Shown here in pieces: positions 4,406 to 35,775 of a stretch of DNA of 64,000 nt; the first letter of the stretch is position 1; every line of letters begins with the position of its first letter. Both the position numbers and the translations under genes were made by a program. Source of the DNA: Gillisia limnaea DSM 15749 (lineage in GTDB: Bacteria > Bacteroidota > Bacteroidia > Flavobacteriales > Flavobacteriaceae); the NCBI RefSeq assembly GCF_000243235.1, contig NZ_JH594605.1, forward strand, positions 190,660 through 254,659. The letters are read 5' to 3'. Under the pieces are notes generated by a model. The model saw only the letters and a program-made list of their open reading frames with translations, had not been told where the DNA came from and searched no databases.

Positions 4406-5089
4406 TTATTTTACTGCCTGGAGATGTACCCAATATTCTTTTTTGAATGCAATTTGAATATTAGAAAATCCAGCATTCTTTAACCATTCTATTTGGACTA
4501 GATAATCTGTTGGTTTATCAAATGCTTCGTAGTGTTCCATGACCCAGGCCCATTTTTTTCCATCAGGAAAGTTGTTATTAACAAATTTTCCCCATTCCTT
4601 CAGTAGCATTGGGTGATCCGGGTTAGTTTTAGTTATCATTAAGTCGCTATAGGAAAATATACCGCCTTTTTTTAAAGAAGAATTTATATCCCTAAAAACA
4701 GATTGTTTCTCGGTATTATCGCAATGATGAAGACTAAACCCAGCAACAATTAAGTCATAACTTTCTGCATTAAATAAAAAATCTTTAAAATACATATTGG
4801 AATAAATAAAATCATAATCATTGAATTGATTGCGACAAAGATCAATCATTTCGGAAGATGCATCCACCAATGTGAAAATGGCATTTGGAAAATAAGAAAC
4901 GAGTTGAGCTGTAATGTTTCCATTGCCACAACCAAGATCAAGAATGGAATTTGGTTTAAAATTATCCGGAAGGGATTTCACAAAACTTGAAACCAGTTGT
5001 AAATAATGAGGTGCACAACCAATCATATCATTGGTATAATTTTTAGAAAAATCATTGAATTCTAAGGCTATGTTTTTTCCTGTTGTCAT
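4406..5089 (-). CDS. class I SAM-dependent methyltransferase
   Basis: 227-residue methyltransferase. Motif I ILDLGCGNGNITAQL (about residues 48-62), acidic motif II FTLVDASSEMID, motif post-III SYDLIVAGFSLHHC and LKKGGIFSYSDL are all present, so SAM binding is well supported. The substrate is unknown (UbiE/TrmB-like small-molecule type by layout). It stands alone between repeat elements, as expected for single-gene accessory cargo. Confidence 0.88.
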   Translation of the reverse strand: MTTGKNIALEFNDFSKNYTNDMIGCAPHYLQLVSSFVKSLPDNFKPNSILDLGCGNGNITAQLVSYFPNAIFTLVDASSEMIDLCRNQFNDYDFIYSNMYFKDFLFNAESYDLIVAGFSLHHCDNTEKQSVFRDINSSLKKGGIFSYSDLMITKTNPDHPMLLKEWGKFVNNNFPDGKKWAWVMEHYEAFDKPTDYLVQIEWLKNAGFSNIQIAFKKEYWVHLQAVK

Positions 5090-5216
5090 TACTAGATTCT
5101 TTAAAATAATTTATCCCTGGAAATAAATTAGTTACAATAAATGTATGATAATTAATTCACTATTCTTTTAAGAAATTGTAATGATATTTAGTTGCAATCA
5201 TTTTCACATAATGAAG

Positions 5217-5330
5217 GATAACGGTAAAGTATAGGCCCACACAGGGTTTCGGAGCAATAAAATGCCTGTCCAACAGAAAGCTTCTTAAGAGCAAAAAAGC
5301 TCAATTTTACCAATTAAGCCAGCATTACGC
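5217..5330 (-). repeat. possible divergent cassette-like element after the GNAT gene
   Basis: Noncoding segment with imperfect arms GATAACGGTAAAG (5217-5229) and TTTTACCAATTAAGC (5306-5320) and an inner hairpin GAGC-AAAAAA-GCTC. Not homologous in sequence to the three repeats nearby, but similar in layout: long-range imperfect inverted arms just downstream of a small gene. Confidence 0.3.
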
Positions 5331-5356
5331 TTATACAATCTTGGTGTCTGAATTTT

Positions 5357-5839
5357 TTATTTTCTGACTGTCCATTTTATCTTCACCGCTGAAATTTTGT
5401 CAAGTTCAAGTCTTTCTTTTTTAAGAATTTCAAAATCACATTTTTTATAAAAACTCAATGGTGAAGTATATGTCCGCCCATTCTTTTTCTTTTCTTTGTC
5501 ATGGTCTATTACCCAACCATTCAATACATATTCAGATTGTTTAATTTTGTCAAGCATTTTACGGCCTAATCCTTGTCCTTGCACTTTTTCTGATAAAATA
5601 ATTGCAAACCATTTTTCATTCTCTCTTTCAAAAGAAAAGGCCCACCCGTAAATTATATTTTCTTCACTTTTCAGTAGCAAGTGTTTCAAGTTGGTTAACC
5701 GTTGTAAATAGTCATCAAATTCCCCCAAGTCATTGTAAGAAAGTTTTTCAGGATATTCTGTGTTCCACAAGTTAAGCAATTCGTTTTTTGTTTTTTCGTC
5801 CAAATAAATCGTCTCGGTTATTTTGAAATTGTCTTTCAT
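5357..5839 (-). CDS. GNAT-family N-acetyltransferase
   Basis: 160-residue acetyltransferase of the GNAT fold. The acetyl-CoA binding loop is KVQGQGLGRKML (about 89-100, the QxxGxG/A motif), preceded by the beta strand GWAFSFERENEKWFAIILSE region and followed by a GWVIDHD segment. It is an isolated gene flanked by structured repeats on both sides. Substrate cannot be predicted. Confidence 0.83.
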   Translation of the reverse strand: MKDNFKITETIYLDEKTKNELLNLWNTEYPEKLSYNDLGEFDDYLQRLTNLKHLLLKSEENIIYGWAFSFERENEKWFAIILSEKVQGQGLGRKMLDKIKQSEYVLNGWVIDHDKEKKKNGRTYTSPLSFYKKCDFEILKKERLELDKISAVKIKWTVRK

Positions 5840-20904: not shown

Positions 20905-22371
20905 TTACCTTCTTTGCTCCTTTACCATCGCAGGAGTTACTTTTGTTTTATTGTTGCCCCAGTTGTTATAAACATAGGTCATAACATCGGCAATTTCCTC
21001 GTCGGTAAGGTTTTGGCTGGTCATTACCGAGTTATATTTATCACCATTTACAGTGATTTCCCCGGTTAATCCGTAAAGAACAGCATTAATGCTTCTACCT
21101 ACATCTGCATTCAAATAATCTGATTTTGCAAGAGGGGGAAAAGCCCCTGCAATTCCCTGTCCTGCAGATTGGTGACAGGCAAAACAGGTTTGGGCATAAA
21201 GTTGTTTTCCGTGAACCAATTGCTCTGCCAGGGTTTTATCGGGCACATTTTGAGGTTCTTTACCCTTTTCGGCCACAGGCATTGCCTGGATCACACTCCC
21301 CTCAGGCAAGTATGTTTTTTCCAATTGGGTTCCAGAATATACCTTCTCATTTTCATCTCCGCCAACCTTAAGCATTCCAAGGGCACCTTTATTAAAGGCA
21401 CGGAAGATAGAATGATCAACAAGAATAAATGTTCCTGGAACCTCCACTTTAAATTCTACTATAGCGGCACCTCCGGCAGGAATTAAAGTAGTTTGAACAT
21501 TTTCATTTACCATACTCCCTCCTTCAACATATACTTTATTAAAGATCTCCCCTATCAAATGAAAGGAAGATACCAGATTTGGACCACCGTTCCCAACAAA
21601 TAACCGAACAGTTTCACCTACTTCAGCAGTTAAAGCATTGTCCCCGCTAATGGCTCCTACGGCACCGTTAAACACCACATAATCTGCATGCTCATCGATT
21701 GCTTTTTGCATACTGAATGCCTGGAGCCCTGGTTTTCCATAATCTCCTTCGGTATAAAAATCACCTTGCATCACATAATATTCCTTGTCTACCGGTGGCA
21801 AACCTCCCTTGGGTTCTACCAGGATTAAACCATACATCCCATTGGCAATATGCATTCCCACGGGCGCTGTTGCGCAATGGTATACATACAATCCAGGATT
21901 TAAGGTTTTAAAAGAAAACACCTTTTCCTGGCCTGGAGCAACGAAAGAAGATTCTGCTCCTCCTCCAGGACCGGTGACAGCGTGAAGATCGATGTTATGC
22001 GGAAGTTTGTTGTCCGGGTGATTTTTTAAATGGAACTCCACTTCATCCCCTACTCTGGTGCGAATAAAGCTCCCTGGGACAGTACCGCCAAATGTCCAGT
22101 ACACATATTTAACTCCTCCGGTCATTTCTCCCTCCATTTCTATAATTTCCATATCCACCACAAGGTTTGCAGCCTTTCTTGCTCCAACAGGCGCAGGAAC
22201 AAAGGGAGGAGAAGTAAGTTGGGCCTGGATCTTTGATTCTACTCGAATATCTTCAGCTTTCGCTTCCTCGGGCTTGCAGGAAAAAAGCGTTAGCAGCACT
22301 ACCAAAATTAAAACAAGTGCCAGATAAAATTTGAAGATTGAATTTTTACTGAGCTGATTGATACTTTTCAT
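20905..22371 (-). CDS. nirK: copper nitrite reductase fused to cytochrome c
   Basis: 488 residues: lipoprotein signal (Cys32), two cupredoxin domains (about 60-340), then a C-terminal cytochrome c domain (about 380-485). Type 1 Cu ligands: H125 (LPHNIDLHA), C166, H174, M179. Type 2 Cu: H130, H165, H320 (LVDHSIF). Catalytic Asp128 and His271 (FHLIGEI). Heme motif CFACH at 396-400. It reduces nitrite to NO in the periplasm; the attached heme domain probably delivers electrons. First gene of nirK-nirV-sco, with an FNR/NnrR-like site upstream. Confidence 0.94.
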
Positions 22372-22425
22372 TGGTTTAGGTTTTATCTATGATACAAAAA
22401 AAGATAAAATTGTCCGATTACAATA

Positions 22426-22437
22426 TGACGATAGTCA
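22426..22437 (-). promoter_or_regulatory. FNR/NnrR-like operator upstream of nirK
   Basis: TGAC-N4-GTCA (TGACTATCGTCA on the minus strand), 55 bases upstream of the nirK start. CRP/FNR-family NO and oxygen regulators bind such dyads, consistent with a denitrification gene. Confidence 0.45.
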
Positions 22438-22576
22438 GTTTTCAACTCAAAATCAGATTCAAATCTTCAAAAAGATAACTTTGGTAAAAAAAATAATCAA
22501 CCAGAAACTTCTACAGGAAAAATGGGAGATATCTATTTATTCATTTAAATTTGACTCGAATCATTCAAACCCCACT

Positions 22577-23827
22577 ATGAATCATAAGATACTTTGCCTA
22601 TTAGGAGTTTTTATATTTTCTTTTACGGTTGAAGCTCAGGAAATCACTGAAACCAATTCGGATATTATTTACCAACGTGCATTGGAAGCCTATAAAAATG
22701 AGGCATATTCTGCCTCCCTAAAACTTACCAAACGCGGACTTGAACTCGCCCCAGAATATCACGATATCCGGATATTACAGATACGGAATCTCTGGGCTTT
22801 GGAGGAACTTCAGGCTGCTGATTCCGATCTGGATTATTTACTAAAAGAAGCTCCGGAGTATGTGGATGTTAAGCCATTGGTGTATCAACGGATCAATAAA
22901 TTCGAGAATAGTACAGAGGTTTTTAATTTTATAGATAGGCTTAGCCATGTCTATCCCGAAGATACCTCATTAAATATTAGAAAAGCTCAGGCGCTTTTAA
23001 AAGATAAACAACGTAAAGAAGCACGGGCCCTTGCGATGGAACTTATTGCTATTAAGGGAATTTCAGGAGCCGATCGCTATGTTTTACAGACATTGCTGAA
23101 TAGAACTGTTTCTGATGAAATAGGATTAAATTACCAATATATAAATTTCAGTGAAGACTATTCCAGGAATGATTCGTGGAATAGCATTAGTGCTGAATAT
23201 CAACATAATTTTAACCGTACGGCCGTTATTGGTCGGGTGAACTATGTAGATAGAAGTTATCAGCAGGGGACCTTATACGAGCTGGAGGCTTATCCGGTTT
23301 TTAGTGACCGGCTTTATACTTTTACAAATATTGGAGTTTCTAATGGGACTATGTTCCCCGACGTGCGAACCAGTGCTTCGGTTTTTTACAATTTCGCAAA
23401 AGTATTTGAAGCAGAAGCAGGTGGTCGGATGCTGTTTTTTAACGATAACGCTTATTAGACAGGAATTATAGGTCTTACAGCATATCAGGGGAAGTTTTAC
23501 CTAAATGCAAGAACTTTTATTGGACCCGAAAGAAAAGGTAATCTGGTTGAGAATTACCAGGCAAATGTGCGGTACTATTTTAAAAATGCCGATAATTATT
23601 TATTCCTGAGATTAGGAAATGGAATTTCTCCGGATGAACGTACCATCTTCACACAGGTTCAGGAGAATCCTGCTCTGGAAGCCTATTACGGCAATTTTGG
23701 GATTAAAAAAAACCTCGGAATCCATCACATTTTTCAGTTGGGAGCAGGATATCTTTTTGAAGATATCACCCCGGAAAACCAAGGGAATCAATTTATTGGA
23801 ACCCTGGGATATCGGTATCGCTTTTAG
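22577..23827 (+). pseudogene. YaiO-type outer-membrane barrel with internal amber
   Basis: The natural start is ATG at 22577 (MNHKILCLLGVFIFSFTVEA, signal peptide); the longer upstream frame is not a gene. TPR-like repeats (YQRALEAYKNEAYSASLKL, LELAPEY) lead to a YaiO-like barrel (YQYINFSEDYSRNDSWNSIS, AVIGRVNYVDRSY). A TAG at 23456-23458 interrupts it (FNDNAY*TGIIGLTAYQGK). The same frame then continues uninterrupted to 23827 (AGYLFEDITPENQ, IGTLGYRYRF), the expected barrel end. So one point mutation separates an otherwise complete 416-codon gene. Confidence 0.8.
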
Positions 23828-24030
23828 AAAATATTTTTTCTGAAAATTTAAGTTGTGGTGCTGGTATTAAGTCTAAAAGATACACCCTTAAATAAACACA
23901 GGTAAAAATAAAATAGCAGTAGTCCAGGTAATAAGCACCAGGTATCCGAAAACAATGATGCAAATTACTCATAGAAATTCTACGTTGGGAACACCAAATT
24001 CAAAAAACATTCAATAGCATAAATGAAACC

Positions 24031-27000
24031 CTAATCATTTTCTTTAAGAAAATATTTTAACCCAAAACTAAAGCTATTGGAATAAAAGTTTTTTAAGGTG
24101 TAAAATTCTAATTGGGTATTAAAATGCAGGTATTTAGAAATTGGCCATAAAACAGTTCCTCTGTAACGTTGAAATTCATCAGAAAAAGTATCAAGAAAAT
24201 ATCCTGCATCAAGATTCACCTTCCAGAAATTCTTTTCATTTGAATATTCATAAGCAATCCCCAAACCGCCGTAAAACCTTTCATCCAAGGTCCAATATGG
24301 ATATCCGCCCGGCCTGCTGGTATTCCCCAACATTCCAAAAATTTCTGTATAAGTCCTAAATTTAGCTCTCTTATTCAACTTGAAATCCATGGACAAGCTG
24401 GTAAGCGCCTGCACATCCAAAACATCATCATCATTATAATGATTCCCTTCTAAATAAAAAACAGCCTGAAATTTTTCTTTAAATTGAAGCTCTTCATAAA
24501 TATTGAATTGGGTTTGATAAATATCTAATTGATACGCGGGTCCCGTTATGGCCGGTTTTCTAAAAAATTGAAATGAACTGTAGAGACTGTCTTTTGCAAA
24601 AGAAGCGCTACCAAGTATATGAAAATAAGCTTTGCCCACATCACTGAATTCTAACCTGGTACCAAAACCATAATTTAACTTTTCTATTCTTTCCCGGTTT
24701 TTAAATCTATAAATAAGTCCGTATAAATTTATGTCACTATTATTTTCTAATTCTATTTGAGAGGGGATCTCATATGCAGCACCGCGACTCACGCCAAATT
24801 GATGCTGGTTGAATTTTTTATCTCGTATCCCATAAACTGCTTCTGCATCAAAAAATGTAAGATCTAACTTATCACTAATAGTATTGCTACCAATGTTAAT
24901 AAAATCCCCTTCAGCAATCCTCAGGTTTTGTTTTATTTGCTCGGCGACTTCCGGATAAAAAAGTATAGGATACTTTTCTAATAAAAACCTTTTTTGATCA
25001 GGTTTTAAATAAACTACATCTTTGTTTAGTTGATTTCTAAAACGATCGTTATTTGTTGAAATTCCTAATTCTGAAACCATTTGCCAGGAATTAACAATGT
25101 CCCCACGGCTCATATAAAATTCGACCATAAACTCTTGAACAGTCAGTTTTTCTTCATTATTCCCTCCGGAATAATTAGTATATAAACGCTCTATTTCGCT
25201 GTAATTACCCAAAGAATTTAACCAATACATACGTTCTACTAAAGGAAAATCTTTTGCGCATAAAGACCATTCTAAGGCTTTCCTGTAACTTCCTTGCCCG
25301 GCATAAGTATATGCAATTGTGGTGGCCAAATATTTTAGGTTTTCCGTACAAGCCCTTATTTCCAATAATTCCTGTGCCGCCTTCTTATTATTTGCCGCAA
25401 TAAGATATTCTATATAGAGCGAAAAATTCCGTTCTTTTAAAAACTCATATTCACCTGATTGAACCCGCCAATCGTCCACTATACTTTCTGTAATATTTTT
25501 GCTACATTTCGACCATAAAATAGCTTTTTTATAATCCTGAGCATCTGCAAAAATCCAGGAAATAGTAGAAGCCGCCTCCCTGAAATCTTCCCGGCAAGGA
25601 ATAATGTTTTTGACCAATTTAAAGGCAGTTTCCGGATATTTTTCATTTAGTAATAACAAAATAGAAAGTCTTTCCTCGCCTAATTTTGTATCTTCTATTA
25701 ATTTTAGTAATTCTTCTGCACTTAGTTGCACCTCAGTATCGCTACCAAAATAACCTATAAAATCTCTTCTAAGTTTAACACTTTCAGGATGCATGTTTAT
25801 TTGCCTTAGCATCCAGCGCCTTCTGGTTTCTAAATTTGGATAATCGCTTTGCTTGGTAAATTCCTCAGATAGATTTATATATACAGAAGTTTTGTTCTGG
25901 GTATACTTTCTTTCCAGCAAGGGCCAAATCTCGTCTTGACGATCGTTCCAGCCCAAATACTGAAATAATTTCAACCATACCTCGCGCTGAAACTTCTTGG
26001 TTTGTGCAATTCTAGACTTTAATTCCAAAATTTCGTTATCATTATCACTGAGGATTTCTTTTGGTTCTATAAGCAGGTAGGATTCGTAATCCTGTATTAC
26101 TGAAGCATGCATTTTTTTTGGATAATCATTAAACTTAGGTAAGCTTAATTCCTTTTCCCTAGTTTCGATGTTAAAGAGAAATCCGTTTAAAAAAGGGGTT
26201 CTAGTAAAGTTTGTATTGCTATCTTTCAGATAACGCTCCATATTCTTATTATTTGCTTCTGATACATAAGAAAACCAATAGTTTTCGCCCTTAGCCGAAT
26301 TTCCAATACTGGCGGCTACCAGGATATTATTTTCGGTTTCTGTAAATTCATAAGGAATTTCCCTCCAGGTTTTTGTGATTTTTGCCGCTTCAGAAACCTT
26401 TAAAAAACGAATCAATGGAAAGGTTTCTTTAACCTTTTTAATATAATTCTCGAATCTTGGAAATAATCCTGGGGAACCGTCCTGTGATACTCTCCACCCA
26501 TAAGAGTTCGCATTTCTCAAGGTATAATCACCGGCGCTTAAAAGGGGCTCCTCCCCTGGAATCTGATAAATATCGTCCGGATGAATAAAATGCGTCCAAA
26601 TACCGGTAAAGAGATACAAAGATTGTTGGTTGAATTCTTGCGACGTGCTCATTGCATACCCGCTACTAATTCGCGGAAAATTAAAAAAATGATAATTAAG
26701 TGGTTCAGGATCAAATTCTCTGTACCCACCTTCTTCAAAATCACCCAGGTAAATACTTGCGTTGTAAACAATACTTGGAATATTTTCTTCTAGTGCAATA
26801 AAACCAATACTATCTATAATATTAGAAGGCGGAACATAGGATACTGGTAGTGTGCCATAACGTAATGCTGACCATCGCTTTTTAACCGATTCAAGACTTA
26901 AAGCCATATAGTTCTTATTCGGCCACTCTTCAAGTGTAAGGGAAGCGTGATTATAACCGTGCAGTGCCACTTCATGTGAAGATTTCTCAAAGTCTATCAT

Positions 27001-28026
27001 AAGCCTGTCAGCCGCATTTCCAACATTGGAACCTTTTATGACAGACTGCTCCCACTCGGGAAAATTAAATGGAGGTGAGGTTTGGTTAGAATAATCAAAA
27101 CATACATAAGCCGAGTAATGTATGTCATACTTTTTTGCCAGTTTAAGCATGTCTTTCCACCAAACTTCGGTATAAAATTTTGCCTGAGTAATTCCCATTT
27201 CTGATTGTACTGGTTCCATTTTAGAATTGTAGAGTGGTGCCGGAAAATCATCTAACATTATACTTGATGCATTTGCAATGGGATAAGGTACACCCTCTAA
27301 ACCCTGCAGAATAGCAGCAAAGAATAATCCTCTTTCTTGTTTTTCAGAAAATTGCTCGGTATTTATGGCAATTACCGAACCTTTACCTATTTCGTTTTTT
27401 ATTATTAAAGGGTAGTTTTCCTCAGTAATTGAAGTGGCTAAAACTTTGATATCTTTCTTGAAATTTTCAGCTTTCAGTCCATAGTGTTTAGTAAGGTTTT
27501 TATATGACTTGTCCTTAAGGGCTGGAAGAAAATTTATTTTGAACTTATAACCCTGCGAAATTGTATCAATCTCGTAATTTGCATCTCCTTTAACTCCCGC
27601 TAAAAACCCGAACTTTTTGTTAGCTCCGACTGTGGGGATGAATATGTGCCCACCATTAGAAACAAAATTTAAAAGAAAATTCATTGCAGGCTCATTCAAA
27701 GAGGCAAGATTGTAAATTACTATCACCTTAACTGAATTCGGCACGGCTTGCTCCCTGTTAAATTCATTAAGATTAATCTCTCCATAGGGGATCTTAGCAT
27801 AGTTAAGGGCTTTCCTAACGTTATTCTTGTTTTTTTCATTTAAAACATCTCCGGGTTCATAAATATAGGATACCCAAGGCATGTTGCTGTTTTCATCATA
27901 TAATACCTCGGGGTTATCTCCTGTTATTTTCTTATTTATCGTATCTAATTCACAGCTTGCAACTGTGAGAAAACACAAGAATAAAAAAATAAACTTCAGG
28001 ATTTTTTTGGGTAAAATAATTTTCAT
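24031..28026 (-). CDS. Pel-like deacetylase / helical repeat / outer-membrane barrel fusion
   Basis: 1331-residue lipoprotein (lipobox TVASC, Cys25). Residues about 50-240: alpha/beta region (GEINLNEFN, VIVIYNLASLNEP). About 250-560: DUF2194/polysaccharide-deacetylase-like domain with metal-type motifs LDDFPAP (Asp259, Asp260) and HGYNH (356-360), plus a THFIHPDD segment. About 640-1030: repeated helical units, TPR-like (YKKAILWSKCSKN, YRKALEWSLCAKD). About 1040-1331: strand-rich barrel-like region ending SFSFGLKYFLKEND. The order corresponds to PelA deacetylase plus PelB scaffold and porin. Last gene of the Pel-like operon (ATGA overlap). Domain identity is inference from motifs. Confidence 0.7.
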   Translation of the reverse strand: MKIILPKKILKFIFLFLCFLTVASCELDTINKKITGDNPEVLYDENSNMPWVSYIYEPGDVLNEKNKNNVRKALNYAKIPYGEINLNEFNREQAVPNSVKVIVIYNLASLNEPAMNFLLNFVSNGGHIFIPTVGANKKFGFLAGVKGDANYEIDTISQGYKFKINFLPALKDKSYKNLTKHYGLKAENFKKDIKVLATSITEENYPLIIKNEIGKGSVIAINTEQFSEKQERGLFFAAILQGLEGVPYPIANASSIMLDDFPAPLYNSKMEPVQSEMGITQAKFYTEVWWKDMLKLAKKYDIHYSAYVCFDYSNQTSPPFNFPEWEQSVIKGSNVGNAADRLMIDFEKSSHEVALHGYNHASLTLEEWPNKNYMALSLESVKKRWSALRYGTLPVSYVPPSNIIDSIGFIALEENIPSIVYNASIYLGDFEEGGYREFDPEPLNYHFFNFPRISSGYAMSTSQEFNQQSLYLFTGIWTHFIHPDDIYQIPGEEPLLSAGDYTLRNANSYGWRVSQDGSPGLFPRFENYIKKVKETFPLIRFLKVSEAAKITKTWREIPYEFTETENNILVAASIGNSAKGENYWFSYVSEANNKNMERYLKDSNTNFTRTPFLNGFLFNIETREKELSLPKFNDYPKKMHASVIQDYESYLLIEPKEILSDNDNEILELKSRIAQTKKFQREVWLKLFQYLGWNDRQDEIWPLLERKYTQNKTSVYINLSEEFTKQSDYPNLETRRRWMLRQINMHPESVKLRRDFIGYFGSDTEVQLSAEELLKLIEDTKLGEERLSILLLLNEKYPETAFKLVKNIIPCREDFREAASTISWIFADAQDYKKAILWSKCSKNITESIVDDWRVQSGEYEFLKERNFSLYIEYLIAANNKKAAQELLEIRACTENLKYLATTIAYTYAGQGSYRKALEWSLCAKDFPLVERMYWLNSLGNYSEIERLYTNYSGGNNEEKLTVQEFMVEFYMSRGDIVNSWQMVSELGISTNNDRFRNQLNKDVVYLKPDQKRFLLEKYPILFYPEVAEQIKQNLRIAEGDFINIGSNTISDKLDLTFFDAEAVYGIRDKKFNQHQFGVSRGAAYEIPSQIELENNSDINLYGLIYRFKNRERIEKLNYGFGTRLEFSDVGKAYFHILGSASFAKDSLYSSFQFFRKPAITGPAYQLDIYQTQFNIYEELQFKEKFQAVFYLEGNHYNDDDVLDVQALTSLSMDFKLNKRAKFRTYTEIFGMLGNTSRPGGYPYWTLDERFYGGLGIAYEYSNEKNFWKVNLDAGYFLDTFSDEFQRYRGTVLWPISKYLHFNTQLEFYTLKNFYSNSFSFGLKYFLKEND

Positions 28027-30017
28027 TGAAATAGTAGTTCATTAATATTACTGGAACCTTTTTTATTTACTATTTGGTAGACGTCTAGATCCTTATTTTG
28101 GTAATAAAGTACCACATCCCTTCCTTTTGATATTAAAAGATTTATCCTTTGAAGCGTTAGATCTTGCTGATTTTTGAATAATTGCTTCTTCATTGAATTG
28201 GTTTTTTCAGAATTGGTATAAATAAAGACAAACAAAGCCTGAGGTAGGATAACATTTGGATTATTACTAAGGTATTGTGCATCATCTTTATGCCTATTGA
28301 AAAGTCGGTCACGTGAGATATAATTATTGTTAAAATAATCGTAGCCATAATAATAATGACTGTTTTTACTAAAACTAGAATATTGCGAAGAATTTACCAC
28401 AGCATAAGAATAAGGTAAATTCCGTGATTGTATTTTAGAATACACCTCAAAGATTAGGTTCTTCGTTTTATCGTTTTCATAATTAAGTTTAGTGGCGGGA
28501 GTAAATGTTAAAAATACTAAAGCAGTAATAACTAAAGCACCCATACTCACTTCTAAAGCTATCGCGCGTCTAGGCGCGAGATTGAAGAATGAAAGGGAAT
28601 CAATTATAATGTGTAGTACAATTCCGAAGAATATGGGAAGAAATATGCAAAGTACCTGACTTAATATATCCCTATCTACCACAGCTTCATTTAACTGATA
28701 AACGCCGAATAAAAGATTTATGAAGGTAAGAAAAACGATGGTAGAAATCCATTTAAGCGGCTTTCTAATAAAATTAAAAACGGTGATAAGCAAAAAGAAA
28801 ACGCCGGTTATCTGGTAATAATACATAAGCTCACTAAATGGAATTACCAAATTTGGATTATAGGTATAGGCATCGAAAGAATAAAGATTAGAAACTATAA
28901 AAGCAATAAAATCCTCACCTTTAATCAATGCTGCAATACCATAAATACTTCCTATTAAAACTACCGAAACCAGGTAAGCAAATAATGTTTGCAAACTTTG
29001 TTTTAGATTATGCCGGAACTTGAAAAATAGAACAAGCAGTAAAAATGGGAATACTAGTAAAACACCTACAAATAGATCAATCATTAATACAGCACTGAAT
29101 AATACTATTATCCAGCTGAAATTGAATTTATTAGTAAAACGAAAACTTTGTGGATAAATACAGAAAAACATGGTAGGTAAAGCAATAACTAAGGCAGTAA
29201 AAACCGATTTATGTTCTGCCAGCAATTCTATATTAAATGGCAGAAATGAATATAGCAAGGCAAAACTTAAACCCGAAATTATCCCGGAAGAATGTTTTTT
29301 TGAAATTTTAAAAACAACCCAATATATTATTAAAGAAAGTAAAGCAGATTCTAAAACACCAAATGTTTGTAACGCCTCAGCGTAAGTTATGTTGGTAATT
29401 TTAGAATAGAGATTTATAAGCAAATAATCTCCCATCATTTCACCAGCCTGAAAGAACCATTGATTGTTAGAAATTCCATTTATGATGTCAAGATCTTTGA
29501 ACCAACTTGATGAGAGGGTGTATATATCTTGGTTGAAAAGTGAATTTCTTGAAATGTATGTTATTACCGGTAACGAAAAGCCAATAGCTAATTGCCAATT
29601 TTTATGGTATCGGGATAATCCCTGATCTTTGTTTTTATATGTGGGCTTAATAAAATTGTCCTTGTCTAAAAAACTCTTCCGTTTCTCAAGTTTAATGGTA
29701 ACATATAGAATGGTGCGGGAATAGATTCTTTGTACCTGATCTTTTATGGGTCTGGTAAAATCCAGTTTCATAAAAGTTAGGATAATAAGCGTAATAGCAA
29801 TGCTAATTACAACAAAAAGATCAAAGGTATAAGTTAAAACCAAAATAAAACTTCCAACTAACACAGAGGAAAGTACCAGGGTAATTACAGGAATTAAAAA
29901 ATTTAATGCTGTTAGTGCAGAAATTTTAGTAGAAATTAATCTATTTATAAACAGGGTTAATGCAAATAAAAAAATTATCCTTAAAGGACCGGAGAGTAGG
30001 TAGGGCTCTAAAAACAT
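28023..30017 (-). CDS. large polytopic membrane protein of Pel-like operon
   Basis: 664 residues with about 14 membrane helices and a soluble C-terminal tail of about 130 residues. The first extracytoplasmic region (LSSSWFKDLDIINGISNNQW) recalls GT-C glycosyltransferases, which have an acidic motif there, but no firm family match. Position between the GH114-type hydrolase and the deacetylase/barrel gene, 8 bases and a 4-base overlap away, argues for a partner role in polymer synthesis or export. It could replace PelD/PelE functions, which are missing here. Confidence 0.6.
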   Translation of the reverse strand: MFLEPYLLSGPLRIIFLFALTLFINRLISTKISALTALNFLIPVITLVLSSVLVGSFILVLTYTFDLFVVISIAITLIILTFMKLDFTRPIKDQVQRIYSRTILYVTIKLEKRKSFLDKDNFIKPTYKNKDQGLSRYHKNWQLAIGFSLPVITYISRNSLFNQDIYTLSSSWFKDLDIINGISNNQWFFQAGEMMGDYLLINLYSKITNITYAEALQTFGVLESALLSLIIYWVVFKISKKHSSGIISGLSFALLYSFLPFNIELLAEHKSVFTALVIALPTMFFCIYPQSFRFTNKFNFSWIIVLFSAVLMIDLFVGVLLVFPFLLLVLFFKFRHNLKQSLQTLFAYLVSVVLIGSIYGIAALIKGEDFIAFIVSNLYSFDAYTYNPNLVIPFSELMYYYQITGVFFLLITVFNFIRKPLKWISTIVFLTFINLLFGVYQLNEAVVDRDILSQVLCIFLPIFFGIVLHIIIDSLSFFNLAPRRAIALEVSMGALVITALVFLTFTPATKLNYENDKTKNLIFEVYSKIQSRNLPYSYAVVNSSQYSSFSKNSHYYYGYDYFNNNYISRDRLFNRHKDDAQYLSNNPNVILPQALFVFIYTNSEKTNSMKKQLFKNQQDLTLQRINLLISKGRDVVLYYQNKDLDVYQIVNKKGSSNINELLFQ

Positions 30018-30025
30018 ATATAGCT

Positions 30026-30838
30026 TTAGTTTGTATCAGGAATTTTTTGCAACTCAATCTTCCCTATAAAATATGGCCAAGTGGTAACTTCTAACCTTTT
30101 TTTAATTGCCACTTTTAATTCTGGGGTATCGGCATATTCAATTAAAACAACTGGAACCTCAAAATCTTTAGTAACCTGTTTAAGCTCACTTAAGACCCTG
30201 GTAAAAATCTCTTCATCTCGTAATTTGTATTTCTTATTCTTAAAATCGTAATCCGTGGCTATGCTTTCCTTTGCTATAGCATCTATATATGGATATGTAT
30301 CTTTTATGATAGAAATTCCTGAGTTTTGCATTAAGTAAATGTTGGGGAACGTTACTTTTAATACTTCCAAAAAATCGAGAAGCGCTTCTTTTTTTTCTGG
30401 GGTAGGTCCAAATTCAGTATAATTATCAATATTATCCAGAAACATGCCATCAAGGCCTTTTTCCATATTAAAATTAAAAATTTCCAAGAGCGTTTTTTGG
30501 GTTTTTATATTTTCAATGTTCAGTATATGACTATTCCAAATTTCATTTTTGCCCAGGGTAACTTCTTTTAATTCTGGATAATGAGCCGCTGCTTCATTTA
30601 CCTCTCCCATGCTTACATAGCCTAAAACCTTAGCATTTTGTTGTTTTAAAACCGCGATATCTTGACTATCAAAATGTGCGCTTTCAATTACCAAAATCGC
30701 ATAATTAGAAACATCTTCCGGATAAAAATCGCCGTACGTGAAAAGCACCTGCTTTTCATCAACCGTCTTTTGGGCCACAACTTGGGGGGCGTTCAGACAA
30801 AATGTGCCTACAATCATAAAAAAATTAATAAGATGCAT
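30026..30838 (-). CDS. GH114/PelA-type glycoside hydrolase
   Basis: 270 residues with a signal peptide (ending QVVAQ). TIM-barrel signatures of the endo-alpha-1,4-polygalactosaminidase group (GH114, related to the GH166 domain of PelA): GYVSMGEVNEA (about 73-83), GLDGMFLDNIDNY (about 136-148), LMQNSGISI, and AKESIATDYDF (about 195-205) with acidic residues fitting the catalytic pair. It overlaps pelG by 14 bases. By analogy it trims alpha-1,4-galactosamine-type polymer during export. Confidence 0.82.
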   Translation of the reverse strand: MHLINFFMIVGTFCLNAPQVVAQKTVDEKQVLFTYGDFYPEDVSNYAILVIESAHFDSQDIAVLKQQNAKVLGYVSMGEVNEAAAHYPELKEVTLGKNEIWNSHILNIENIKTQKTLLEIFNFNMEKGLDGMFLDNIDNYTEFGPTPEKKEALLDFLEVLKVTFPNIYLMQNSGISIIKDTYPYIDAIAKESIATDYDFKNKKYKLRDEEIFTRVLSELKQVTKDFEVPVVLIEYADTPELKVAIKKRLEVTTWPYFIGKIELQKIPDTN

Positions 30839-32438
30839 AATAATAATAATCTAGGTTTTTAAAGAAATGATTGGTTGCTCTTGTGGTTAAAACCATAAAT
30901 ACAATGGAACCGATAAGCATTCCTATAACACTATATTCATAACCAATCCACCTGCTTGCAGGAATACCTATAACTAAGTTAACCAGGAAAGCAATAACTA
31001 TGGCCACCAAAGGTTTTCTATGTCGACCAAGGGTATAAAGATATAGTACGTTAAGCATTCCCAGGCTTAGGAATAAATAACCAATACTTCCCAAGATACA
31101 TACTTTAATGCTTAAGGGACTAAGAATTTCTTCAAATCCCGATGTATAGCCCCAGGGTTGAGTAATTAAAAAATATAAAAAGATCGCGATAATAAACGCA
31201 CTAACGCCTAACAGACGCAAGTGTTTAACGTACATCCTTTTCATCTTTTTATTGAAATTATAATATTCAGAATACTTTATTTCTAACTGGTGAAAATCCA
31301 TATGTCTTATATAAGAATGAATTGCATATTCCATAACCCCTCCAAGCAGGAAGAAAATTAAAATGGCGAGATCCATCCCAATTTCATAATCTTTTTCATA
31401 ATAAATTACATATGGTATCTCCCTGTTTGAAGTGGAAGACCACGCAACAATTCTATCTAAAAAAACAAAAAGGAAAATAAATGTACCGTAAAGAAAGTAA
31501 TTGAAATTTCGATATAACGATAACATTACCTTAGGTTGCTTTTTAACAGCAACATTTTGTTTCAGTTTATATCTAAAAAACATATAAATATATCCTACTG
31601 AAATTAGTGAAGCTGTAAGTATTCCAATCCAATGAATAAAATAAGGATGCAAATCAGTATTAAAATGAAGTATAAGCGCTAATGTCGTACCAACGAAAAT
31701 GCTTACAGAAAGCATCCATCTCTGCTTCAAGGCATAAAGAGGCGCTAATACAAGTAATAAAAAACCGACAAGAAGCGCATAGGAAAAGCTTATTAAAACA
31801 AAAAGGAAACTATATAGTGGAAAAATAAAATTAATTACAATAGAAAACACAAAAAAACCTATGATAGCAAGGGTGCCATTTTTAATGATTTTTTTGGTTG
31901 AATAACTAGCCATATGGTAATCTTTGTTATACCAATAGTAAGAAACCTGTTTCCCTATTACCTGAATAAAACCACCGCTTAATATGAAACCCAGAATTAC
32001 TCCCAGTACCACAGCGGTAGACTGCAAATTATTAAACCTTGAATATGTCCAGAGTGAAAAACCAAACAATATAATAGCAAATACCTGTAAAAAAATTGGA
32101 AATAAATGAATGAGACCTGAGCTGTAATCTGCAATAAATCTTCTGGTATTTTTGGTAGTAATATAATCGTTTAGCGCAAGCCTTTTATAGGTCTTTGCCT
32201 CGGCAATACGCTGGTTATTATTTTTAAGGTTTGCAAGGGCTACAAAACCACAAGCTTTATAGATATATTCTGATAAATGAATAATACTTTCAAAACCGTA
32301 ATCTTCTTTTATATCTTTTTCCCTAATACCAAAAGATTCTATGGTTGCTGCTACTACATAAACGTTAACCGGTTTGCCGTTACGTTCTTTAACCGCAACA
32401 ATTAGTTTTGCAATGGCTTTGATTTGGGAGCTATTCAT
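30825..32438 (-). CDS. pelG: PelG-like exopolysaccharide transporter
   Basis: 537 residues: about 105 soluble N-terminal residues (RNGKPVNVYVVAATIESFGI, ..YKACGFVAL), then about 12 membrane helices (FIADYSSGLIHLFPIFLQ onwards, GFILSGGFIQVIGKQVSYYW, ASRWIGYEYSVIGMLIGSIV). MATE-superfamily flippase of the Pel system by arrangement and by its partner PelF. Classical PelG is shorter (about 456 residues), so the N-terminal extension is unusual. It starts 8 bases after pelF. Confidence 0.75.
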   Translation of the reverse strand: MNSSQIKAIAKLIVAVKERNGKPVNVYVVAATIESFGIREKDIKEDYGFESIIHLSEYIYKACGFVALANLKNNNQRIAEAKTYKRLALNDYITTKNTRRFIADYSSGLIHLFPIFLQVFAIILFGFSLWTYSRFNNLQSTAVVLGVILGFILSGGFIQVIGKQVSYYWYNKDYHMASYSTKKIIKNGTLAIIGFFVFSIVINFIFPLYSFLFVLISFSYALLVGFLLLVLAPLYALKQRWMLSVSIFVGTTLALILHFNTDLHPYFIHWIGILTASLISVGYIYMFFRYKLKQNVAVKKQPKVMLSLYRNFNYFLYGTFIFLFVFLDRIVAWSSTSNREIPYVIYYEKDYEIGMDLAILIFFLLGGVMEYAIHSYIRHMDFHQLEIKYSEYYNFNKKMKRMYVKHLRLLGVSAFIIAIFLYFLITQPWGYTSGFEEILSPLSIKVCILGSIGYLFLSLGMLNVLYLYTLGRHRKPLVAIVIAFLVNLVIGIPASRWIGYEYSVIGMLIGSIVFMVLTTRATNHFFKNLDYYYYASY

Positions 32439-32446
32439 TTTTTTGA

Positions 32447-33964
32447 TTAATCTTCGACTTTGGCTAATTTTTGGTTAGCTTTCTTGCTTTCCATTAAATT
32501 ATTATAAACAGTTTCATATTCACTTACGAATTTGTTTAAAGTAAAGTTTTTTAAAACCCTTTCCCGGGCATTTTTCCCCATACTTTTTCGTAAATCTTTA
32601 TCTAAAAGCAACTTGGTAACGGCATTTCCAATTCCCTCGGTATCTTTTGGTTTACATGTAAATCCACAGCTTTCATCTAGGGCTTCCTTAACACCACCAA
32701 CCTCAGTTGAAACTACGGGAATACCGCAACCCATAGACTCAATAACCGTATAAGGAAAACCTTCAGAAATAGAAGTTAAAATAGAAAGATCTCCTTCCAG
32801 GAAAATATTTTGAGGATCTTTTCTTGGCCCCATAAATTTGAAGTTTTCCTGTAAACCTAATTCGTCTATAAGGTCCAGACATTCATTTGTATATTCTGGA
32901 ACTGCCTGATTATCTCCATAAACCAAATATTGCACATTTGGGATTGTCTTTTTTACCACTGCACAGGAGCCTATCATGGTAAAAATATCTTTAAGTTCAA
33001 ATACTCTTGCCACTGCTACAACCGTAGGGATATCTTTTAAATGCGCAGGTTTTGGGCCAGGTTTAAAAACATCTGGATCTATGCCGTTGTATATAATTTT
33101 AAATTTGTCAGGATCTGCACCATACCATTTTTCCCATTTTTGGTTGAATGTGGTTACCGACACAATAACGTCAGCTTTGTAATAAGCCAAACGTGCAATA
33201 GCTTCAGAAAACTTTATTAATAAGCTTTTTAAGAAATATGGGTATTCTGAGTTGCTAATGGCCAATAGCCTTTCCCGAATAAAAACACCATGCTCTGTAA
33301 GCATAATTTTAGTGTCATGCTTGAAATTAGCAATAAGTGCCGGGATAACAGGAAAACCACTTAGAGTTAAGTGTACGACATCAACTTTAGGAATATTCAC
33401 AATTGAAAGGGGGATTAAAAACCTGTAAATCCAACGCAATCCTATAGTAATATCTATTAAGGAGGCATCGGGGTTGCGTTCTCCTATAATAAATTTAGAC
33501 AGGGTATCCCTATAAGTGGTCCACACGTGCCTATTTCTCATGGTATCTTTGTAATCATAATCTTCAAAGTAAAACCATAATTGATGAAAAATTATATCCA
33601 GATCCTCTATCTCCTGGTCATCACTATAAATAAATTCTAGTAAGCTTCTAAAAATCGGGATAAACTTTTGGGCAACTATCTCGTCATTTGTCCACTCCTT
33701 TTTAGCAACAGTTTTATAATATTCCTCTCCATAACTAATATAATCATATGGCTCATCTGGTGTCCAAAGGGGTACTTGTATAACTTCGGTAATATTCTTA
33801 CTAAGTTCATATCTTGGTTCATCCTCAAAAGAAGCGTTTAAGGAATATAACTTAAAATCAACATTGTTTACCTTATTGCATAGGTGATGGGCCCAGGTTG
33901 ATACGCCGCCACCATTGTAGGGATAGGTGCCTTCCAAAATAAGCAGAACTGAGGGCTTTGCCAT
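32447..33964 (-). CDS. pelF: PelF-type GT4 glycosyltransferase
   Basis: 505 residues. GT-B fold, GT4: donor-side motif at the N-terminus GTYPYNGGGVSTWAHHLC (about 12-29), PelF-specific; C-terminal half VARVFELKDIFTMIGSCA, and EGFPYTVIESMGCGIPVVST (E-x7-E motif). In P. aeruginosa PelF is the cytosolic polymerase using UDP-hexosamine donors. First gene of the operon, with a 284-base divergent intergenic to the GH114-type gene at 34249. Confidence 0.88.
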   Translation of the reverse strand: MAKPSVLLILEGTYPYNGGGVSTWAHHLCNKVNNVDFKLYSLNASFEDEPRYELSKNITEVIQVPLWTPDEPYDYISYGEEYYKTVAKKEWTNDEIVAQKFIPIFRSLLEFIYSDDQEIEDLDIIFHQLWFYFEDYDYKDTMRNRHVWTTYRDTLSKFIIGERNPDASLIDITIGLRWIYRFLIPLSIVNIPKVDVVHLTLSGFPVIPALIANFKHDTKIMLTEHGVFIRERLLAISNSEYPYFLKSLLIKFSEAIARLAYYKADVIVSVTTFNQKWEKWYGADPDKFKIIYNGIDPDVFKPGPKPAHLKDIPTVVAVARVFELKDIFTMIGSCAVVKKTIPNVQYLVYGDNQAVPEYTNECLDLIDELGLQENFKFMGPRKDPQNIFLEGDLSILTSISEGFPYTVIESMGCGIPVVSTEVGGVKEALDESCGFTCKPKDTEGIGNAVTKLLLDKDLRKSMGKNARERVLKNFTLNKFVSEYETVYNNLMESKKANQKLAKVED

Positions 33965-34248
33965 TTAAATTAGGTTTCGGTAAAAATATATTAAAAAAAA
34001 GTTAATAAGCAACATACAGGCAAAAATTTCGTGTTTAGTTGTGCTAATTTTTTCATCAGTAATGACATAGGGTTTCAGATAAAACTTTTTTGGCACTGAA
34101 GCAGGTGCAAAGCATTTGACGTTATCTTTTTTCACGTATATTTACTCCGTTAAAAAAATGTACTTTTTATTATTTTTTCGGGTATAATTATAAAATTTTT
34201 CGGTTTATTTCCCAAGTCCCTGAGTAGAATACTTTCAATTTGTATCAC

Positions 34249-35226
34249 ATGAATTTATACAACATAAGCACTGCTATCTTTTGCTGCTTTCTTTTTTCCT
34301 GTTTTGAAAACACGGCTCAGAAAATGGAAAATAAAAATTACCGAAAGGAAATGCGAGATTTTGTTATTGATATAAGCAAAACCGCAAAAGCAAAAAACCC
34401 CAATTTTATAGTCATTCCGCAAAATGGTGTGGAGCTTATACTTAAAAATACTTCAAATCAAAAACTGTTTGCTTTAGATTATTTAGACGCGATAGACGCC
34501 TTAGCACAGGAAGACCTTTTCTTTGGCTATCCTAAAATGAATGATACAACCCCTTTTTCGGATAATCTTTATCTAAGCACCTATCTACATCTTGCAAAAA
34601 GTAAAGGAAAAGAGGTTTTAGTTACAGATTACTGCTCTTCCCTTAATTTGATAAATACTTCTTACAAGCTTAATGAAGAGAGCGATTTTATATCTTTTGC
34701 AGCACCAACACGAGATTTAAATCAAATCCCAAACTACCCGGTTTACAAAGAAAATAGATCTAATATCACTACTCTTTCTGAAGCTCAAAATTTCTTATAC
34801 CTGATAAATTTTTCTGAATATTCTTCCAAACAGGATCTTATTTCTGAACTGAAAATCACGAATTACGATATAATTATCCTGGATCTTTTTTTTGAAGGAA
34901 AAGCTTTTACTAAAGAAGAAATTCGGCAATTAAAGCTGAAGAAAAATGGTTGTAGTAGGCTTGTTATCGCTTATATGTCTATTGGCGAAGCCGAAGATTA
35001 CCGTTATTACTGGAAAAACTCCTGGGAATTAAATTATCCGGAATGGATTGTTGAAGAAAATCCTGATTGGGAAGGGAATTTTAAAGTAACATACTGGAAC
35101 GAAGAATGGAAGAAAATTATCTACGCAAGTGAAAATGCTTACTTAAGTAAAATACTTGATTCGTGCTTTGACGGAGTTTATCTTGATATTATCGACGGAT
35201 TTCAATATTTTGAAGACAACTTCTAA
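34249..35226 (+). CDS. second GH114-type hydrolase-like lipoprotein
   Basis: About 325 residues from MNLYNISTAIFCCFLFSCFE, with a lipobox-like Cys at about 15; a TTG nine bases upstream is less likely. C-terminal half carries the TM1410/GH114 pattern: RLVIAYMSIGEAEDYRYYW and FDGVYLDIIDGFQYF. The N-terminal half (about residues 30-170) has a related YLDAIDALAQEDLFFG segment, so the protein may be a duplicated barrel. Divergent from pelF, so it probably belongs to the same polysaccharide system. Confidence 0.78.
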   Translation: MNLYNISTAIFCCFLFSCFENTAQKMENKNYRKEMRDFVIDISKTAKAKNPNFIVIPQNGVELILKNTSNQKLFALDYLDAIDALAQEDLFFGYPKMNDTTPFSDNLYLSTYLHLAKSKGKEVLVTDYCSSLNLINTSYKLNEESDFISFAAPTRDLNQIPNYPVYKENRSNITTLSEAQNFLYLINFSEYSSKQDLISELKITNYDIIILDLFFEGKAFTKEEIRQLKLKKNGCSRLVIAYMSIGEAEDYRYYWKNSWELNYPEWIVEENPDWEGNFKVTYWNEEWKKIIYASENAYLSKILDSCFDGVYLDIIDGFQYFEDNF

Positions 35227-35493
35227 GATATTCACCAAAGTTATCTCACTGTGCTACTATATATTTTAGACAGTTTAAAGATCTTTAATCAGTATTAGCA
35301 ATAGAAAATTTATTAAATCTCCTAAACCCCAAATTAGATGGACATTCCAGAAGTATTTGTAAAGTATACCCTTGCCTTTCGGAATTTGTAAATTATTCTG
35401 GATAATTAGGATGATCTGAAAAATATAAATCTTATAAAAAGATATCAAAAAAGGATTCGAAAAGTGGATTCGCAATCTCACACCGGGAACAAC

Positions 35494-35548
35494 AAAAAAG
35501 CCCCGCACTATCGTGCAGGGCTTAACTTCGTCGGGGTGGCAGGATTAC
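35494..35548 (-). repeat. second copy of tRNA-Pro 3' end and terminator
   Basis: About 53 bases matching 35664-35718 with two or three mismatches: terminator hairpin (35498-35523) followed on the plus strand by TCGGGGTGGCAGGATT, the 3' 16 bases of tRNA-Pro. The remainder of the tRNA is absent. Intergenic 35227-35493 shows no gene. Confidence 0.75.
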
Positions 35549-35613: not shown

Positions 35614-35671
35614 GCTTTTTAGTTTAACCCTTACCCAGAAGCAAGCTTCCGGCAATGTTAAACTAAAAAGC
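35614..35671. repeat. 15-bp perfect inverted repeat
   Basis: GCTTTTTAGTTTAAC (35614-35628) and GTTAAACTAAAAAGC (35657-35671), separated by 28 bases, between the two tRNA-3'-end copies. Confidence 0.7.
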
Positions 35672-35693
35672 CCCGCACTTTCGTGCAGGGCTT
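35668..35693 (-). terminator. tRNA-Pro terminator
   Basis: AAGCCCTGCAC-GAAA-GTGCGGGGCTT followed by a T-run on the minus strand, 8 bases after the tRNA 3' end; one G-T pair in the stem. Confidence 0.8.
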
Positions 35694-35700
35694 AACTTTG

Positions 35701-35775
35701 TCGGGGTGGCAGGATTCGAACCTGCGGCCTCCTGCTCCCAAAGCAGGCGCGATAACCGGGCTACGCTACACCCCG
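35701..35775 (-). tRNA. tRNA-Pro (TGG)
   Basis: 75 bases. Acceptor CGGGGTG / CACCCCG, T-loop GGTTCGAATCC, anticodon loop TTTGGGA with anticodon TGG, discriminator A; CCA is not encoded. Followed by the terminator at 35668-35693. Confidence 0.95.

Follow-up and report, generated by a model that had tools for sequence, protein, structure and literature searches.

Introduction

In the Pel system of Pseudomonas aeruginosa, a CE21 deacetylase is joined to a hydrolase in PelA, and the exporter, PelB, is a separate protein. Contact between PelA and PelB is reported to enhance deacetylation, and the published answer to the question of how the polymer is handed over from the former to the latter is a modelled complex (PMC12022489). 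Among Gram-positive systems, PelADA of Bacillus cereus (PDB ID: 9ZAU), the founding member of CE26 and CBM114, is active on alpha-1,4-linked oligomers of N-acetylgalactosamine (GalNAc) (PMC13254593). In this study, we analyzed a stretch of 64,000 nucleotides from Gillisia limnaea DSM 15749 (contig NZ_JH594605.1, positions 190,660 to 254,659; hereafter the window), in which a packed unit on the minus strand at 24031–33964 consists of genes for PelF, PelG, a GH166 hydrolase, a membrane protein and a long lipoprotein. Here a CE26-type deacetylase is joined to a predicted exporter. Taken as a whole, the locus is in our judgment quite probably a Bacteroidota form of the Pel machine, with deacetylase and exporter in one chain and a GT-C-fold protein as a partner.

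Deacetylase domain of the long lipoprotein

The long lipoprotein (1331 aa) is encoded at 24031–28026 on the minus strand, as are all genes of the unit, and its gene is present in a single copy in the two-contig genome. The protein begins with a signal sequence carrying a lipobox-like Cys25 (27952–28026; SCELD at residues 24–28). This is followed by an alpha/beta domain whose counterpart in the alignment is the CBM114 domain of PelADA (residues 53–250; 27277–27870) and by a CE26-like deacetylase with conserved motifs (residues 251–560; 26347–27276). The Pfam family DUF2194 spanned residues 65–586 with an E-value of 3e-75. Among PDB sequences the sole strong match was 9ZAU, of which residues 38–469 aligned with residues 53–488 of the long protein (E 2e-44), a homology that takes in both the CBM114 and the CE domain. 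In this alignment, with an offset of 25 counted by hand, D262/D263, H350/H354, P405, N407, R458, H488 and D490/D491 of PelADA corresponded to the identical residues D259/D260, H356/H360, P400, N402, R452, H482 and D484/D485. The aligned set comprises the base, the metal triad, the Arg and the acid of PelADA, all of which were kept in the long protein. The window protein carried the motifs DD, HGYNH and HPDD, as did all 75 relatives with a length of 1270 residues or more; five shorter open reading frames (ORFs) out of 80 relatives were omitted from the count. R452 was invariant in a 53-row alignment. An original prediction, made from the letters of the window, had proposed a deacetylase-like domain, which a lack of metal-binding geometry would have refuted; no such result emerged, the metal-binding and acid/base residues of PelADA being retained in the alignment. 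The prediction had placed HGYNH at residues 356–360, as we found, and LDDF at 257–261, which we correct to 258–261.

We rejected the reading that this half of the protein is the CE21 domain of Pseudomonas PelA. Neither the long protein nor its six-row profile matched full-length PelA (9CGY) at E ≤ 1 among PDB sequences, as against the E-value of 2e-44 with 9ZAU. Because 9CGY sits in the searched database and was found there by the hydrolase of the same unit, whereas the long protein had 9ZAU as its only strong match, PelADA-type and not PelA-type is the right name. CE18 (Agd3) is reported as a structural neighbour of PelADA (PMC13254593). Judged by its sequence, the deacetylase half belongs with the PelADA deacetylases of Gram-positive bacteria (CE26). 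A loose lipobox pattern located a Cys in 75 of 80 relatives, in about six of which it lay within the hydrophobic stretch and was probably the wrong Cys.

Predicted repeats and barrel

A structural model of residues 240–1331, built with 53 sequences, had a mean predicted local distance difference test (pLDDT) score of 84.6 and a predicted template modelling (pTM) score of 0.44. In the model, the deacetylase was followed by about two dozen helices forming predicted TPR-like repeats (residues 636–1041; 24904–26121) and then by exactly 16 strands, each of about 10–15 residues, forming a predicted outer-membrane barrel (strands within residues 1042–1326; domain at residues 1042–1327, 24046–24903). 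The original prediction had guessed a C-terminal barrel at residues 1040–1331, close to where the model puts it; the refuting outcome named there, a model with no barrel, did not arise. The sole helix of at least four residues in the modelled barrel was situated between strands 7 and 8, in TGPAYQLDIY (1161–1170), whose G, P, I and Y were invariant in the six-row alignment. PelB, too, has a 16-stranded barrel, in which a short helix (Plug-I) lies between strands 7 and 8 (PMC12141448). When the model was compared with 350,542 PDB chains by Foldseek, ranks 1–5 were BcsC, BcsC, 4Y25, BcsC and PelB, with E-values from 6e-11 to 4e-7, and all other barrels ranked lower. The chain 4Y25, titled polysaccharide secretin, we take to be PgaA. 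In sequence searches, the matches listed for a 53-row profile and for the protein of a distant relative (L124) included TPR proteins, with no exporter; Pfam TPR was detected in two of 15 diverse members scanned, clearly in L124 alone, and not in the window protein. Residues 636–1326 appear to be a PelB-like exporter of helical repeats and barrel, as far as the predicted structure indicates.

The barrel could instead be an anchor that holds the deacetylase at the outer membrane, an idea that fits the failure of the C-terminal part to match any known exporter in sequence and the proximity of a YaiO-domain barrel protein adjoining the unit (22358–23458), which shows that barrels are also available from outside it. 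We hold it to be improbable: the five chains that lead the ranking are all exopolysaccharide exporters, and the unit has no other exporter gene, yet a Gram-negative Pel system requires one.

Distribution and gene order

In a species-level genome collection, 184 stretches encoded relatives of the long protein, and the best 80 were kept as relative loci. All 71 loci with sufficient DNA carried the five genes in the same order on a single strand: 63 satisfied a strict spacing rule, and eight had a longer start call or a wider gap. The remaining nine were cut by contig ends. The closest long protein among the loci fetched was that of Salegentibacter sp. 24, with 71% identity in the best segment. 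In even samples that included the window's genome, the fusion protein was found in five of the 296 genomes sampled from the order and in four of the 395 from the class. When 395 genomes of the phylum were searched for the DUF2194 domain, 46 had a match at E ≤ 0.001, and 28 of the matches were above the cut-off. Of these 28, 27 were situated in ORFs of 1268–1349 aa and one, a marginal match (30.8 vs 30.4 bits), in an ORF of 696 aa; the fusion is thus the rule among DUF2194 proteins of this phylum sample. Twenty-two fusion-bearing genomes lay outside the class of the window's organism, and nine of the ten loci inspected there (L124–L133) kept the order with one extra gene, while L124 had no hydrolase match in the unit. 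The original prediction had suggested looking for this gene order in other Bacteroidota, where it proved to be conserved.

That two genes had been read as one, by chance or through an annotation artefact, we regard as practically discounted, and nothing in its favour came to light. The long protein is read from a single frame without interruption, both in the window and in relatives as distant as about 30% identity, and nearly all above-cut-off matches of the phylum sample sit in such long ORFs; this conservation of one long frame refutes the artefact.

Stand-alone GH166 hydrolase

The hydrolase (30026–30838; 270 aa) passed PF03537, and its nearest solved relatives were PelA hydrolase chains, namely 5TCB (E 3e-13) and 9CGY, the latter matched via its hydrolase part. 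D135 and E191 were kept in 70 of 70 aligned hydrolases: the window's own, five distant ones, and those 64 of the 74 encoded in the relative loci that have 255–275 residues. By hand count, D135 aligned with D160 of PelA, and E191 with a Glu of PelA at position 218, which we take to be the residue exchanged in inactive mutants. The acid/base residue of PelA is printed as Glu223 (PMC12054363). In one relative outside the class (L130), the hydrolase at 4955–5818 reads as a pair of ORFs of 104 and 168 aa and may therefore be broken or mis-sequenced there.

The original prediction had described a PelA deacetylase fused to PelB, with the PelA hydrolase split off. The joining of a Pel-type deacetylase to a PelB-type exporter, the latter as judged from the structural model, and a stand-alone PelA-type hydrolase were both borne out. 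An origin from Pseudomonas PelA was not, and a split PelA is not supported, since the deacetylase belongs to CE26 and not to CE21. Moreover, hydrolase and deacetylase are separate in Gram-positive pel loci too (PMC7112168), so that splitting off is just one of two possible directions.

Membrane protein with a predicted GT-C fold

The fourth gene (28023–30017) encodes a polytopic membrane protein of 664 aa, which had been recognized as polytopic and left unexplained in the original prediction. It had no match in Pfam, NCBIfam or PDB sequences. A model built with 50 sequences (pLDDT 84.3, pTM 0.85) was most similar in Foldseek to GT-C enzymes or complexes containing one, which filled ranks 1–23 with probabilities of 0.99–1.00; 14 of these had E ≤ 0.001, the query TM-scores were 0.31–0.40, and the identities were 10–14%. 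They included oligosaccharyltransferases, PglB, DPY19, ArnT, AftA, ALG3/9/12, Pmt4 and AftB, which are enzymes of the GT-C class; we infer that the matched chains of large complexes (e.g., 8B6L_I, 9N9J_I and 6FTG_5) are the catalytic subunits. Rows outside GT-C among the best 50 listed had probabilities of at most 0.20. The 664-aa protein is predicted from its model to have a GT-C glycosyltransferase fold. We rejected its identification as PelE or PelD, as the model resembles GT-C enzymes rather than repeat proteins or GAF/GGDEF proteins.

The hallmark of GT-C enzymes is an acidic residue that is conserved in their first outer loop. In the membrane protein, the first-loop D164 was invariant in 50 rows of the Flavobacteriia type and absent from seven aligned sequences of the L124–L133 loci, which weighs against an enzymatic role. 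Catalysis by Asp164, convincing on the 50 sequences, is not claimed here, given the absence of the residue from the wider set. In the phylum sample, the GT-C protein was found in 27 of 395 genomes, exactly the 27 with the fusion, one match (G858) being partial with an E-value of 2e-17. This co-occurrence, together with the gene order in 71 loci, is more than chance would give. A literature search on GT-C together with the Pel polysaccharide brought up only a type IV pilus paper.

Permuted GH191 hydrolase

A sixth gene, omitted from the original prediction, is situated upstream of pelF on the plus strand (34249–35223). When its product was aligned with TM1410, residues 200–322 fell on the front half and residues 29–129 on the back half. 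A 23-row profile, consisting of the window sequence and 22 of 31 copies, matched TM1410 in the same two swapped stretches with independent E-values of 1e-30 and 5e-10, and a second solved chain of GH114/GH191 type, 9EP5, was likewise matched in two stretches. The gene also passed TIGR01370 in two stretches (183.9 vs 181.25 bits). By hand count, D313 and E88 corresponded to Asp156 and Glu225 of TM1410 and were invariant in 23 of 23 rows; Asp156 and Glu225 are the reported catalytic residues (PMC12054363). The swapped halves, together with both catalytic residues, identify the product, on sequence evidence, as a circularly permuted GH191 enzyme with its active pair kept. We also considered a truncated pseudogene, as Pfam covers half of GH114, and rejected it because the missing half is at the front; relatives of the gene have the same length and the same ends.

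The GH191 gene was present in 31 of 80 relative loci, divergent before pelF in eight, on the same strand before pelF in 21 (e.g., L006–L009) and after the unit in two. In the phylum sample, 30 genomes had any GH191 match and 24 had a permuted order spanning the profile, with one in-frame stop each in the copies of G815 and G872. The unpermuted order was seen in two genomes, G953 and G433, so the method distinguishes both orders. Of the 24 genomes with the permuted gene, 22 belong to the 27 with the fusion (Fisher p 3e-29, kinship ignored), and the gene was often on a contig other than that of the fusion. The permuted GH191 enzyme is likely the sixth member of the system. In the available text of the GH191 paper (PMC12054363) the permutation is not mentioned, and we found no other literature joining the two topics.

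These hydrolases bear on the possibility that a machine of the same type makes another polymer, one that is not Pel of galactosamine (GalN) and GalNAc, or one that carries sugars added by the GT-C protein from a polyprenyl-phosphate donor. Such a polymer would accord with the confinement of the GT-C protein to the fusion-bearing genomes among the 395 and with the identity of only 49–56% between the PelF of the window and that of five relatives; the literature searched gave no chemical data on these organisms, which we counted on the same side. On the other hand, the GH166 and GH191 families encoded next to the fusion act on galactosamine polymers. One of two studied GH191 members cleaves Pel, TM1410 being inactive on fungal galactosaminogalactan (PMC12054363), and the nearest deacetylase is the one active on GalNAc oligomers (PMC13254593). 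Catalysis by the GT-C protein is open to doubt, given the uneven retention of the first-loop Asp in the sequences. We regard another polymer as possible, though less likely than not.

PelF, PelG and regulation

The five minus-strand ORFs, their order, gaps and overlaps were all as the original prediction had given them: gaps of 8 bases separate pelF from pelG and the hydrolase gene from the membrane protein gene, and overlaps of 14 and 4 bases join pelG to the hydrolase gene and the membrane protein gene to the lipoprotein gene. PelF (32447–33964; 505 aa), a GT4 glycosyltransferase, cleared NCBIfam NF038011 with 178 bits against a cut-off of 100, and it alone was above the cut-off among 18 matches of the model in the window's genome. 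The translocase PelG (30825–32438; 537 aa) was identified by PF16933, which begins at residue 103 and profile position 23, the N-terminus having about 80 additional residues. A promoter and terminator scan gave hit numbers about equal to those of shuffled sequences.

A search for GGDEF proteins gave none in the window's genome; eight of 14 control genomes were positive. Of 12 fusion-bearing genomes checked, ten lacked GGDEF and two (G683 and G858) had it. The PelD family PF16963 had no match in the window's genome, nor did it have one in the control genomes. Within 23900–34200 there was no ORF of at least 200 aa other than the five, a region to which the search for PelC was confined. Outside the class, loci L125–L133 had one gene of 518–543 residues between pelG and the hydrolase gene (e.g., L125:3615–5237), with an HD domain in both copies scanned. 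In L124, instead, two genes separated the membrane protein from the fusion, one of SpoIIE/GAF and the other of GAF/HD type (L124:4462–8038). These extra genes may stand in PelD's place; the Flavobacteriia unit has no such extra regulatory-type gene. Pel production without cyclic di-GMP (c-di-GMP) is already known from Streptococcus intermedius (PMC12345266), and the window's organism seems to run its system without c-di-GMP.

Elsewhere in the window, a 56-base stretch occurred twice (35491–35546 and 35661–35716) in copies 95% alike. It includes the 3' end of a tRNA-Pro gene (35700–35775, minus strand) and resembles the partial duplication of a tRNA end left by integration.

Discussion

The sequence itself identifies PelF, PelG, the stand-alone GH166 hydrolase and the domain like PelADA, and it shows the conserved gene order, the catalytic residues and the permutation; the models add predicted repeats, a predicted barrel and a predicted GT-C fold. 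We infer the chemistry of the polymer, its direction of flow and the roles of the GT-C protein and the hydrolases as follows. In the cytoplasm, PelF would polymerise a chain of amino sugars for PelG to move through the inner membrane. On the periplasmic side, the CE26-type domain of the lipoprotein would remove some acetyl groups, and the chain, now cationic, would be led along the helical repeats of the same lipoprotein and pass the outer membrane via its own 16-stranded barrel. The GH166 hydrolase would trim or release the chain, and the permuted GH191 enzyme would be a second trimming enzyme. The GT-C-fold protein would occupy the place in the operon that PelD and PelE have in other systems. 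The fusion would set the ratio of deacetylase to pore at one to one, where Pseudomonas couples the two through PelA–PelB contact, and most likely passes the modified chain straight from the active site to the pore.

Several observations weigh against this reading. PelG passed PF16933 barely (32.5 vs 29 bits). Neither a PelC-like small lipoprotein nor PelD was found in the five-gene unit, and the place of PelE in the operon is held by the gene with the GT-C-like model, no search for PelE having been made. Acidic residues after the lipobox Cys are surface-export signals in Bacteroidota, and such a residue was present within five positions of the lipobox-like Cys in 68 of 75 relatives; if it is a surface signal, it fits poorly with a periplasmic deacetylase. 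Sequence matches of the C-terminal part to the PelB, BcsC and PgaA chains were absent, so the assignment as an exporter comes from the predicted structure, and Pfam PgaA_barrel was found in one of 15 members, below the cut-off (E 0.006). Superpositions on the five leading Foldseek matches gave target TM-scores of 0.41–0.72 and root-mean-square deviations of 4.4–20 Å; with these large deviations and the low pTM score, the mutual placement of the domains is not fixed by the model. The charges of the predicted barrel were about even (34 acidic and 31 basic residues), which lends no support to an anionic lining like that of PelB.

Even so, the locus looks like a real and conserved variant of the Pel machine, distinct in Bacteroidota, with parts not known from described Pel systems. 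One could go further and envisage a separate Bacteroidota lineage of Pel, mostly independent of c-di-GMP, in which the GT-C protein adds lipid-carried sugars or primes or anchors the chain, deacetylation and export form one covalent channel, and the permuted GH191 enzyme is a dedicated trimmer. As a whole, this extended proposal is rather unlikely; if it were true, the product would be a decorated or anchored Pel, of which we found no description. Current knowledge is most likely to be altered by two features, namely the GT-C partner and the missing control by c-di-GMP.

We found no description of a deacetylase–exporter fusion in the accessible portions of the open-licence literature on DUF2194 or on Pel in Bacteroidota or Flavobacteria. 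The term "Bacteroid" did not occur in the available text of PMC12022489, PMC13254593, PMC12141448 and PMC12345266, nor "Bacteroidetes" in that of PMC7112168 and PMC7112194. A caution here is that full-length PelA homologues are reported from 16 phyla (PMC12022489). Pel proteins appear in a genome-annotation table alongside Psl and alginate genes (PMC8305213), and pelADEFG is reported in the candidate phylum KSB1 (PMC9012183); the accessible portions of both papers do not describe the fusion.

Comparison with known systems shows which parts are shared. The nearest relative of the deacetylase half, B. cereus PelADA, is homologous over residues 53–488, has the same catalytic residues and is also encoded in a pelF/pelG operon, but it is a Gram-positive protein of three domains with an N-terminal transmembrane helix, whereas the long lipoprotein has a lipid anchor at one end and the predicted repeats and barrel at the other. 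With PelA and PelB of P. aeruginosa the locus has in common a hydrolase, a deacetylase, repeats, a 16-stranded barrel and the helix between strands 7 and 8, the last three as predicted by the model; PelC, PelD and PelE belong to the P. aeruginosa operon and not to this five-gene unit. OST/STT3, PglB, ArnT and AftA have folds like the model of the 664-aa protein, from which they differ in showing 10–14% identity and no family match, and the acidic residue of the first GT-C loop is conserved in the 664-aa family only within the Flavobacteriia-type set. Compared with TM1410, the divergent GH191 gene has both halves and both catalytic residues, with the halves in swapped order. The system thus offers a candidate new component, the GT-C protein, and a naturally permuted enzyme. 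Because deacetylase and predicted exporter form one natural chain, deacetylation-coupled export would be open to study in a single protein with fixed stoichiometry. BcsC for cellulose and PgaA for poly-N-acetylglucosamine, which gave the best structural matches, have repeats and a 16-stranded barrel as modelled here and no fused deacetylase. The sole precedent that we saw for a modifying enzyme fused to a pore is BcsZ–BcsC of Zymomonas (PMC7112194).

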